64,000 nt of DNA, taken from positions 62,001-126,000 of the forward strand of contig NZ_PQHW01000004.1 of NCBI RefSeq assembly GCF_003385215.1. Direction: 5' to 3'. Positions 38,485 to 53,786 of this stretch are shown here, one piece after another. Below the pieces are notes generated by a model. The model saw only the letters and a list, made by a program, of their open reading frames with translations. It had not been told where the DNA came from and did no database searches. The translations under genes were made by a program, and so were the position numbers. Source of the DNA: Amycolatopsis thermalba (GTDB taxonomy: Bacteria > Actinomycetota > Actinomycetes > Mycobacteriales > Pseudonocardiaceae). Within the stretch, counting starts at the first letter, position 1. Every line of letters starts with the position of its first letter.

Positions 38485-39093
38485 GTGACCGACCGTCTTG
38501 TCTGGATCGACTGCGAGATGACAGGGCTGGACCTCGCGAAGGACGCCCTGATCGAAATCGCCGCCCTGGTGACCGACGCCGACCTCAACATCCTCGGCGA
38601 CGGCCTCGACCTCGTCATCCACGCCGATGACGACGTGCTCGCCGGCATGCCCGACGTCGTGCGCGAAATGCACGCCAAATCCGGGCTCACCGACGAAGTC
38701 CGCCGCTCCGTCACCACCCTCGAGGAAGCCGAACAACGCGTCCTCGACTACATCCGGACCCACGTTCCCGAAGCCAACAGCGCCCCCCTCGCCGGCAACT
38801 CCATCGCCACCGACCGCGGATTCATCGCCCGCGACATGCCGGCCCTCGACGCCCACCTGCACTACCGCATGGTCGACGTGTCCTCGGTCAAGGAACTCGT
38901 GCGGCGCTGGTACCCCCGCATCTACTACGCCAAGCCCGAGAAGGGCCTCGCGCACCGGGCACTCGCCGACATCAAGGAATCCATCAGCGAACTCGACTAC
39001 TACCGGCGCACCGCGTTCGTGCCCCTACCCGGCCCCAGCACCGACGAAGCCCGCGCCGCGGCCGCCGAAGTGCAGCTCAAACACACCAAGTGA
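38485..39093 (+). CDS. orn: Oligoribonuclease
   Basis: 202 residues, GTG start. A DEDDh exonuclease: [11 protein letters not shown] supplies Asp9 and Glu11, [11 protein letters not shown] the middle Asp region, and [11 protein letters not shown] the final His and Asp. It degrades 2-5-nt RNAs and pGpG, completing mRNA decay, and is essential in many bacteria. As often in actinomycetes, it lies directly before tRNA-His. Confidence 0.95.
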
Positions 39094-51155: not shown

Positions 51156-51935
51156 GTGATCGAACTGAAGACGCCCGCCGAGATCGACCGCATGCACGTG
51201 GCCGGGCGGTTCGTCGCCGAGGTGCTCACCGAGATCGGCCGGCTCGCCGATGTGGGTGTCAACCTCCTGGACCTGGAGCACCACGCGCGCGGCATGATCA
51301 AGCGGCGCGGGGCGGAGTCGTGCTACTGGGACTACGCGCCGTCCTTCGGCAAGGGCCCGTTCCGCAACGTGATCTGCCTGTCGGTCAACGACGCCGTCCT
51401 GCACGGCCTGCCGCACGACTACACGCTGCGCGACGGGGACGTACTCACCGCGGACCTCGCGGTCGGCATCGACGGCTGGGTGGCCGACTCGGCGCGCACC
51501 ATCGTCGTCGGAACCGCCGCCGAGGAGGACCTGCGGCTCATCCGCGCCACCGAGGAAGCACTGGAGGCGGCCATCGAGGCGGCCCGTCCGGGCAACCGCC
51601 TCGGCGACATCTCGGCGGCGATCTGGGCGGTGGCCTCCGGCTACGGCTACCCGGTCAACACCGAGTTCGGCGGTCACGGCATCGGCCGCACCATGCACGA
51701 GGACCTGCACGTGCCCAACAAGGGCCGGGCCGGCCGCGGCCTGAAGCTCCAGCCGGGCCTCACCCTCGCGCTCGAACCGTGGTTCGCCCGCACCACCGAT
51801 CGGATCGTGTACGACCCGGACGGCTGGACGATCCGCTCGGCCGACGGCTCCCGCACGGCCCACTCCGAGCACACGGTCGCCATCACCGAGGACGGCCCGC
51901 GGGTGCTCACCCGGCGGGAATCGGAAGGAGACTAG
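51156..51935 (+). CDS. map: Type I methionine aminopeptidase
   Basis: 259 residues, family length. All five metal ligands are present: Asp100, Asp111, His174, Glu207 and Glu238, plus the catalytic His in VLHGLP (His83). GTG 51156 is chosen because GAGG lies six bases upstream; GTG 51144 is an alternative. It removes initiator methionine. It is not in a ribosomal-protein context and shares an operator-controlled divergent promoter with a P450, which suggests a specialised paralogue rather than the housekeeping copy. Confidence 0.92.
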   Translation: MIELKTPAEIDRMHVAGRFVAEVLTEIGRLADVGVNLLDLEHHARGMIKRRGAESCYWDYAPSFGKGPFRNVICLSVNDAVLHGLPHDYTLRDGDVLTADLAVGIDGWVADSARTIVVGTAAEEDLRLIRATEEALEAAIEAARPGNRLGDISAAIWAVASGYGYPVNTEFGGHGIGRTMHEDLHVPNKGRAGRGLKLQPGLTLALEPWFARTTDRIVYDPDGWTIRSADGSRTAHSEHTVAITEDGPRVLTRRESEGD

Positions 51936-52102
51936 CTGTAGTGCCCGACGAGGTTGGTGACGCGTGGAGGTAGGCCCATTCATCGGCCAGGGCCGCCTTG
52001 ATCAACCCGACGCACCGACACACTGTCCACGATCCCTGCCGCCAGCACGCCGCAAAAATCGGTTCGGGATACGGGAGTTGCGGCGTATCCTGATCTTCGC
52101 AC

Positions 52103-52243
52103 GCCGGTCACCTCGGACAGGCCCGGTGCGCAGGCGAGGGTTACTTCCGGTTCACCAGGTTCGACTCCTGCGCCTCCGCAAGGAGGTGGAAACCTTCACC
52201 GACTCCTTCTCGGGCCTGTCCGAGGTCGCCGGCTCCCCTTTTT
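52103..52243 (+). ncRNA. yrlA: Y RNA (YrlA-like) with tRNA-like module
   Basis: A 16-bp perfect stem joins 52110-52125 (ACCTCGGACAGGCCCG) to 52211-52226; across a C-C mismatch and G-T pair it continues with 52103-52107/52229-52233. Inside is a tRNA-like module: acceptor-like 52128-52136 with 52171-52179 (one C-C mismatch), directly followed by a T-arm CAGG-TTCGACT-CCTG (52156-52170); no anticodon arm. A second hairpin spans 52180-52208 (AAGGAG/CTCCTT). TTTTT (52239-52243) ends the RNA. A possible promoter has TATCCT at 52086. The adjacent rsr gene fits a Ro60-bound Y RNA. Confidence 0.75.
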
Positions 52244-52259
52244 CCCCTGCGAGGCAGGC

Positions 52260-53786
52260 ATGTCCAAGTTCAACCTGCTCCGCCGAAGACCGGCGAACCG
52301 GTCCCCGATCGTCACGGCCGCGGTGCCCGGTGTCGTCAACCACCAGGGCGGCACCGGTTACGCCCGCGACACCAAGTCCGAGCTGTTCCTGCTCGCGGTC
52401 GCGAACATGGTCGGCGAGGACACCTTCTACGAGCAGGCGGGCGACCGGGACAGCCGCTACGCCGAGCTGGTCCGCCGCGCCGCGCTCGGCGATCCACAGT
52501 GGACGGCGCGGTTCCTGCGCTGGCTGCGCACCGAGGCGAACATGCGCTCCGCCTCGCTCGTCGGCGCGGCCGAGTTCGTCAAGGCACGCCTGGACGGCGG
52601 CGCCGACGACGGGCCGTCCAACCGCGCCGTCGTGGCGAGTGTGCTGCGGCGGGCGGACGAGCCGGGCGAGCTGATCGCGTACTGGTTCAGCCGCTACGGC
52701 CGCCGCCTGCCCAAGCCGGTCAAGCGCGGGGTCGCCGACGCGGTCGGGGCGCTGTACGACGAGCGGTCGGTCCTGAAGTGGGACAGCGGTAGTCGCGGTG
52801 TGCGATTCGCCGACGTGCTGCGCCTGGTGCACCCGCAGCCGCGGGACGCCGTGCAGGACGCGCTCTTTGCACACCTCCTGCGCGGCGGCACGGCGCCGGA
52901 GCTGGACCTGCTGGCCCGGCGGCGGGCGCTCATGGCGCTCCCGGTGGAGCGTCGGCGAGCGGCCCTGGACCCCGCGCAGCTGCGGGCCGCCGGCATGACG
53001 TGGGAGGCGCTGGCCGGGCACCTGCAGGGCCCGCTGGACGCGGCGGCGTGGCAGGCCGTCATCCCGGGCATGGGGTACATGGCGCTGCTGCGCAACCTGC
53101 GCAACTTCGACGAGGCCGGGCTGCCGGACGAGGTGGCCGACCGCGTCGCGGCCCGGCTCGCCGATCCGGCGGAGGTGGCGCGGTCGCGGCAGTTCCCGTT
53201 CCGGTTCCTGTCCGCCTACCGCGCGGCGCCGTCGCTGCGGTGGGGACCGGCGCTGGAGCGCGCCCTGCACGCGTCGCTGTCCAACGTGCCCTCCCTGCCG
53301 GGGCGGACGCTGATCCTGATCGACCGGTCCGCCTCCATGTGGATGAGCGGCAGGCGGTCGGCGGTCACGTTCGCCGACCAGGCCGCCCTGTTCGGGTGCG
53401 CGCTGGCGGTGCGGGCGCAGCGGCCGACGGTGGTGGTGTACGGCTGGGACAGCCGCGAGGTGCGGGTTCCGCGCGGCGGGTCGCTGCTGCCGTTCGTCGA
53501 CAGCCTCGACAAGTTCCCGGCCACCAACACCGCGGCGGCGGTGCGCAGGCACTACCGCCGCCACGACCGGGTCGTCATCGTCACCGACGAGCAGTCGGCC
53601 ACGGCGGACGCGTCGATGGGTGTGCCGGACCGGGTTCCGCTGTACGTGTGGAACGTCGCCGGGTACGCCACCGGCAACACGCCGTCCGGGCTGGGCACGC
53701 GGCACACGTTCGGCGGGCTGACCGACGCGGCCTTCCGGATGATCCCGCTGCTGGAGTCCGGCCGGGACGCGGACTGGCCGTTCTGA
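52260..53786 (+). CDS. rsr: Ro60/Rsr ortholog (TROVE domain and vWA domain)
   Basis: 508 residues, close to the size of Deinococcus Rsr and Ro60. Residues about 25-345 form the TROVE HEAT-repeat ring (SELFLLAVANMVGEDTFYEQ, RFLRWLRTEANMRS, MGYMALLRNLRN). Residues 350-505 are a von Willebrand A domain with MIDAS residues Asp355-x-Ser357-x-Ser359 and VTDEQSA. It binds Y RNA and misfolded RNA and may tether PNPase. It follows the putative Y RNA by 17 bp; ATG 52260 has GAGG upstream. No rtcB or PNPase gene is nearby. Confidence 0.92.
   Translation: MSKFNLLRRRPANRSPIVTAAVPGVVNHQGGTGYARDTKSELFLLAVANMVGEDTFYEQAGDRDSRYAELVRRAALGDPQWTARFLRWLRTEANMRSASLVGAAEFVKARLDGGADDGPSNRAVVASVLRRADEPGELIAYWFSRYGRRLPKPVKRGVADAVGALYDERSVLKWDSGSRGVRFADVLRLVHPQPRDAVQDALFAHLLRGGTAPELDLLARRRALMALPVERRRAALDPAQLRAAGMTWEALAGHLQGPLDAAAWQAVIPGMGYMALLRNLRNFDEAGLPDEVADRVAARLADPAEVARSRQFPFRFLSAYRAAPSLRWGPALERALHASLSNVPSLPGRTLILIDRSASMWMSGRRSAVTFADQAALFGCALAVRAQRPTVVVYGWDSREVRVPRGGSLLPFVDSLDKFPATNTAAAVRRHYRRHDRVVIVTDEQSATADASMGVPDRVPLYVWNVAGYATGNTPSGLGTRHTFGGLTDAAFRMIPLLESGRDADWPF

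Follow-up and report, generated by a model that had tools for sequence, protein, structure and literature searches.

A predicted Y RNA of reduced tRNA-like type ahead of the Ro60 gene of Amycolatopsis thermalba

The window, that is, the whole stretch of 64,000 nt of Amycolatopsis thermalba DNA that was analysed, carries directly ahead of rsr, the gene of a Ro60 protein, an RNA that is very probably, judging from comparison of related loci, the Y RNA of this gene, and of a reduced type lying beyond the coverage of the Rfam YrlA family (RF02553). The family to which this RNA belongs is characterized by a covarying stem, by the motif GGUGCGCAG...UACUUC / ...UCUCGG and by linkage to rsr. A Y RNA next to rsr had been proposed in a sequence-only reading of the window; the covarying, rsr-linked family supports it well, while a stable transcript and its binding by Rsr are predictions. 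Vertebrate Y RNAs have a Ro60-binding stem and are not known to carry a tRNA-like domain, and their Ro-site sequence is presumably similar to that of the family described here.

Results

The RNA upstream of rsr

The elements of the RNA and its surroundings are the following:

52086–52091, plus strand: TATCCT, a possible −10 element just before the likely 5′ end of the RNA
52103–52125, plus strand: 5′ strand of the terminal stem, presumed to bind Ro
52125–52133, plus strand: GGUGCGCAG, motif at the 5′ Ro site shared by the rsr-linked RNAs, used by the module detector with at most one substitution
52133–52141, plus strand: 5′ strand of the inner stem, GGCGAGGGU, pairing with 52192–52200 except for C52135/A52198
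52142–52147, plus strand: UACUUC motif, 3′ of the preceding strand, present in 33 of 33 RNAs of alignment A2
52149–52150, plus strand: linker GG, putative stand-in for G18 and G19 of the D loop
52156–52170, plus strand: T arm, CAGG-UUCGACU-CCUG
52171–52188, plus strand: acceptor-like hairpin, CGCCUCC-GCAA-GGAGGUG, a permuted tRNA acceptor closed by a loop
52192–52200, plus strand: 3′ strand of the inner stem, ACCUUCACC, paired with 52133–52141 by comparison
52201–52213, plus strand: 3′ Ro-site motif, diverged in the window, GACUCCUUCUCGG (A2 consensus GACUU.GAUCUCGG)
52211–52233, plus strand: 3′ strand of the terminal stem, partner of 52103–52125
52239–52243, plus strand: TTTTT, not conserved
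52260–53786, plus strand: rsr, Ro60/TROVE protein of 508 aa (PF05731, 54.6 bits)

The terminal stem contains 22 pairs and a single C·C mismatch at 52109/52227. The perfect 16-bp stem read earlier from the sequence is exact (52110–52125/52211–52226), with six further pairs past the mismatch, and 26 nt separate the end of the stem from the start of rsr. The segment 52098–52245 folds at −82.5 kcal/mol in RNAfold, against −56.5 ± 4.4 kcal/mol in 200 dinucleotide shuffles, none of which equalled it (z −5.9), and the segment 52103–52233 gives a z of −6.65. The minimum-energy fold does not contain the T arm and pairs its bases with other partners. In the comparative fold, positions 52133–52141 pair with 52192–52200 and enclose the T arm and the acceptor hairpin; enforcing this fold costs 4.3 kcal/mol relative to the minimum in the window and 0.3 to 3.5 kcal/mol in the relatives L002–L005, and in L007 it is the minimum-energy fold itself. 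Both hairpins that had been claimed are found, the T arm with its TTCGACT loop (CAGG-TTCGACT-CCTG), well supported by the covarying rsr-linked family, and the second one, CGCCTCC-GCAA-GGAGGTG.

Regarding the flanking signals, the TTTTT run noticed earlier is present and carries no weight; it is missing from the four closest relatives. A terminator scan gave no site; it covers only stems with loops of 3 to 8 nt, so it could not judge the long terminal stem. A sigma-70 scan found no promoter site. The hexamer TATCCT is identical in three of five close species (the window, L002 and L004) and differs at two positions in L003 and at one in L005, a conservation that is only suggestive of a promoter. 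No tRNA gene was called by ARAGORN at the position of the RNA.

The Ro60 gene proposed downstream is confirmed by its PF05731 match and by the predicted fold of its product. The AlphaFold2 model, obtained from 27 sequences, has a mean pLDDT of 89.2, and its Foldseek matches at E ≤ 0.001, 13 PDB chains, are without exception Ro60, Rsr or TROVE proteins, including 9nfa_A (TM 0.80), 1yvp, 2nvo and the Ro60 of Thermus phage phiLo, 9l5y. In a related genus, the Rsr of locus L152 (G025:C40:98900-102500) is a single frame of 980 aa, in which an insertion between MGYMA and CLRNLRNF keeps the frame; the insertion matches LAGLIDADG_3 above the cut-off and an intein-splicing profile below threshold, and by these matches it is very likely an intein within the Ro60 protein. 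A split Rsr match resembling it was seen in G279:C18.

A family of RNAs linked to rsr

Relatives of the window Rsr are encoded in 253 stretches of GTDB genomes, from which 80 loci were kept, and 43 more loci were taken from viral contigs; some loci represent the same record twice (L002/L015, L005/L091). An initial scan with looser motifs gave 467 hits, a great many of them chance matches; in its place a strict detector of modules was used, which demands both motifs, with one substitution tolerated in UACUUC, and pairing of the inner stem. With the strict detector the coding strand of the loci yielded 221 modules, the reverse strand nine. Within 1.5 kb upstream of rsr lie 215 of the 221 modules, and modules occur there in 114 of the 132 loci having more than 250 nt of upstream sequence, the sequences being related, so that locus counts are not independent events. 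The remaining 18 loci gave no module by this detector, which overlooks some real RNAs (L005, L091). The 117 module-bearing loci hold one to four modules each, and the nearest one lies 28 to 719 nt from the start of the protein match; in L116 and L121, modules are downstream of rsr. A rough classification gives 99 modules with T and D arms, 89 without T arm and 33 with T arm and no recognised D arm, the classes being imperfect because some D arms of unusual sequence scored as absent.

For R1, a covariance model, 33 rsr-linked RNAs with a D arm were used, none of them from the D-less clade of the window; one member, L016, bears the name Amycolatopsis, yet over the best segment its Rsr shows 59% identity. 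In this held-out test the best R1 match in the window was 52113–52225 (54.6 bits, E 4.8e-12), which is also the best match in the whole genome. A second match in the window, of 17 bits, falls over a tRNA gene, and a weak one on the minus strand at 38924–38968 (14.8 bits, E 0.037), GCCCGGUGCGCG...UUCUCGGGC, consists of Ro-site-like ends with almost nothing between. The window RNA shares with the actinobacterial and actinophage RNAs of R1 the motifs GGUGCG[C/A]AG...UACUUC, the inner stem, the T arm, the acceptor hairpin and the proximity to rsr; it differs in that the 33 members have a D arm, and many of them also an anticodon arm, both absent from the window RNA.

Compensatory changes, proposed earlier as a check of the stem, were found. 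In alignment A2 (33 RNAs, 30 modelled pairs) 96.4% of the cells are paired, compared with 36–46% in controls with slid partners, and 22 of the 30 pairs changed on both sides. The inner stem, the T arm and the D arm are partly built into these figures, because the detector or the class definition required them; the terminal stem and the helix corresponding to the acceptor hairpin were not required, and both covary strongly. In alignment A5, the 29 RNAs of the GG class, 92.0% of the cells are paired (slid controls 32–52%) and 10 of 22 pairs changed on both sides. The inner stem covaries in A2 and less so in A5, whereas the T arm keeps its four pairs in all 29 RNAs of A5; the acceptor hairpin went unscored there because it is misaligned. 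The terminal stem of L007 forms 20 consecutive pairs, many through compensatory change, so that it is rewritten with its pairing kept, and its acceptor hairpin has a wholly different sequence. An acceptor hairpin can be formed in all six RNAs of the genus, some with a mismatch, the script having picked the best hairpin.

All seven phage regions examined have R1 matches at E ≤ 0.01. Before the Ro gene of Streptomyces phage GiJojo (L154), an annotated tRNA-Arg(cct) at 1769–1843 overlaps an R1 match at 1758–1918, and in Gordonia phage VanLee (L155) an annotated tRNA-Arg(tct) at 1704–1775 overlaps a match at 1697–1848; from this overlap, both annotated tRNAs are probably Y RNAs.

The tRNA-like domain and its relation to YrlA

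In the full forms the order of the elements is T arm, 3′ strand of the acceptor, loop, 5′ strand of the acceptor and D arm, which is a permuted tRNA. A hairpin resembling an anticodon arm stands 5′ of the T arm in 60 of 96 unique forms with T and D arms, compared with 3.1% after shuffling, and 44 of these 60 carry the anticodon-like loop CUNNUAA. When rotated to the order of a tRNA, the 60 RNAs were all called tRNA by ARAGORN, a result that is not independent because the set was selected for that hairpin; unrotated, 3 of the 96 were called. Among the 36 forms without the hairpin, 22 can form a long-range anticodon stem as in RF02553 (13% when shuffled), although 11 of the 60 hairpin forms also pass this test. 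In the family, 43 of the 79 long R1 matches have the anticodon-arm hairpin. In upstream Y RNA copies of Streptomyces (for example L018 4574, L023 4565 and L019 4476) the anticodon-like loops vary at two positions (CUCAUAA, CUGAUAA, CUCUUAA, CUGUUAA), with U33, U36, A37 and A38 constant.

The Salmonella YrlA structure, PDB 6CU1, is described as circularly permuted relative to tRNA (PMC11472068), and a published survey reports yrlA in some mycobacteria (PMC9569102). The window RNA resembles YrlA in its long stem joining the ends and in the permuted order of T arm and acceptor hairpin (52156–52188), a tRNA-like domain as expected of YrlA. It differs in the motifs of its stem, and has neither D arm nor pseudo-anticodon stem; the D arm that follows the acceptor hairpin in the YrlA consensus is absent from L001–L005 and L007. 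The RF02553 model gave no match at gathering (69 bits), nor at E 10 within 51930–52330, and no gathering-level match in the seven loci or six genomes searched; full forms score 44.7 bits (G025) and 37.2 bits (G034). The RF02553 consensus has no anticodon-arm hairpin, which 60 of the 96 actinobacterial and phage forms do have. The name YrlA, as used in Rfam, is not supported for the window RNA. A covariance-model search had been named as a test that could refute the identification; it came out negative with RF02553 and strongly positive with the actinobacterial Y RNA model.

Distribution in genus and family

Rsr matches occur in seven of 19 genomes of the genus, that of G007 being degraded, and the six best R1 matches in the genus, from 150 candidates scored per genome, immediately precede the six intact rsr genes. 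The other 13 genomes have no comparable match, the highest scoring 42.1 bits in G001 and no more than 33.7 bits in the others. This linkage is one inherited locus and not a set of independent events. The match in G001 (L148) has a permuted sequence of T arm, acceptor and D arm (31.7 bits and E 4.9e-5 with RF02553), lacks a visible Ro motif and lies in a genome without TROVE match; it possibly represents tRNA remnants.

Of the 297 genomes of the family, 64 have an Rsr match at E ≤ 1e-60. The R1 search was made on 64 loci from 63 of them, with G148 left out and G300 contributing two, and 63 of the 64 loci have a match at E ≤ 1e-4, the exception being L008 of G007. The best score is at least 93.6 bits in the 57 loci outside the genus and 54.1 to 62.8 bits in the six genus loci, lower, as expected, because the D arm is missing. 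The locus of G007 (L008, L153; G007:C38) has decayed: it lacks the 3′ half of the Y RNA along with the start of rsr, the remaining 5′ half joins rsr directly at about codon 50, and rsr contains a stop. G025 has a second rsr-like locus (L013, G025:C42), whose Ro hairpin is very small (26.2 bits with R1).

The variant without D arm

Between the strands of the inner stem, the window RNA has only two elements, T arm and acceptor hairpin, and neither D nor anticodon arm. It thus mimics just the top half of a tRNA, whereas a larger tRNA-like part accompanies the Ro60 genes examined in related genera. By model columns, a D arm is present in 79 of the 87 R1 matches of the family that bear a T arm; the eight without it are the six RNAs of the genus (L001–L005, L007) and two of another genus (L172, L175), which are extra copies beside a full form. 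A GG within one base after UACUUC is present in all eight D-less RNAs, against 21 of 78 that have the D arm; of the latter 21, 20 fall into one class with an atypical D-like hairpin of loop ACYYCGGU; the eight D-less rows come from only two genera, so the small p-values of the association are untrustworthy. In a wider and noisier set the linker GG occurs in 14 of 30 D-less and 11 of 94 D-bearing RNAs. An absolute association between GG and lack of the D arm (28/28 versus 1/58) was discarded, as the D-arm pattern was written after the sequences had been seen and the neutral test by model columns is weaker. The linker GG may replace the GG of the D loop in docking to the T loop. Neither an anticodon-arm nor a D-less Y RNA appears in the literature titles and abstracts among the matches listed, a scope outside which the main YrlA papers (2014, 2018) fall.

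Discussion

We consider it likely that a noncoding Y RNA of about 130–140 nt lies ahead of rsr, with its stem bound by Rsr and its stub acting as a reduced, effector-binding mimic of tRNA. In the mechanism that we propose, transcription would probably start from a promoter just upstream, and the RNA would be the leader of the rsr mRNA or be processed from it. Rsr would bind the terminal stem, from which the T arm and acceptor-like hairpin would protrude as a reduced tRNA mimic tethering or gating an effector. The D arm presumably disappeared in this lineage. A further possible role of the RNA is to allow Rsr to sense its own level. Aminoacylation is unlikely, unless the RNA is cleaved, because the acceptor end is closed by a loop. 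A precedent from other bacteria is PNPase: in the Deinococcus radiodurans RYPER, a Y RNA tethers Rsr to PNPase (PMC7790460, PMC8394870). By analogy, the stem is expected to bind Rsr and the tRNA-like module an effector; in the window RNA, unlike RYPER, this module is reduced and the effector is only postulated.

The position of the stem, ending so close to the start codon, could also mean that the RNA acts solely in cis, with Rsr binding its own 5′ UTR to repress or stabilise the mRNA, and with no separate Y RNA carrying an effector. The upstream location of the modules in most loci agrees with such a leader, as does the lack of a terminator-like site, although the scan could not judge this stem. 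This reading is nevertheless improbable, given that the nearest module may be as far as 719 nt (and as near as 28 nt) from the protein match, that a locus may have up to four modules, that those of L116 and L121 follow rsr, and that simple autorepression needs no tRNA-like part. Somewhat less probable still is a degenerate relic of YrlA devoid of effector function, to which the disappearance of the D arm and anticodon stem, the diverged 3′ motif, the 12 of 19 genus genomes without an rsr match and the decaying locus of G007 would point. Compensatory changes in the stem argue against decay, and six species, including that of L007, whose Rsr is 58% identical, have kept the T arm, the linker GG and the 5′ Ro motif, as well as the acceptor hairpin with some mismatches; D-less RNAs occur, moreover, in another genus beside a full form. 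A chance hairpin in a GC-rich region, or a terminator of the upstream gene as the TTTTT after the stem might indicate, has practically no likelihood in view of the z of −5.9 to −6.65 and the E of 4.8e-12 from the held-out model, and covariation already contradicts it.

Returning to a Y RNA of reduced type, one family holds a series from the four-arm permuted tRNA through RF02553-like forms to the stub of T arm and acceptor, and this natural series makes the minimal effector-binding element directly testable. As a tentative proposal, in which we have rather little confidence, the actinobacterial and actinophage Y RNAs would have arisen by grafting of a circularly permuted tRNA, in many cases still with its anticodon arm, onto a Ro60-binding stem, perhaps from the junction of two tandem tRNA genes; the window RNA would belong to a minimal class, devoid of D and anticodon arms, in which the linker GG docks to the T loop instead of G18 and G19 of the D loop, and would possibly be the smallest mimic of the tRNA elbow on a Ro60 particle. 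Weak matches of the YrlA model and of R1 resemble junctions of neighbouring tRNA genes, and the phage Ro-like genes of L154, L156, L158 and L159 lie inside or near tRNA arrays; both observations would fit a permuted domain that arose at a junction of tRNA genes.
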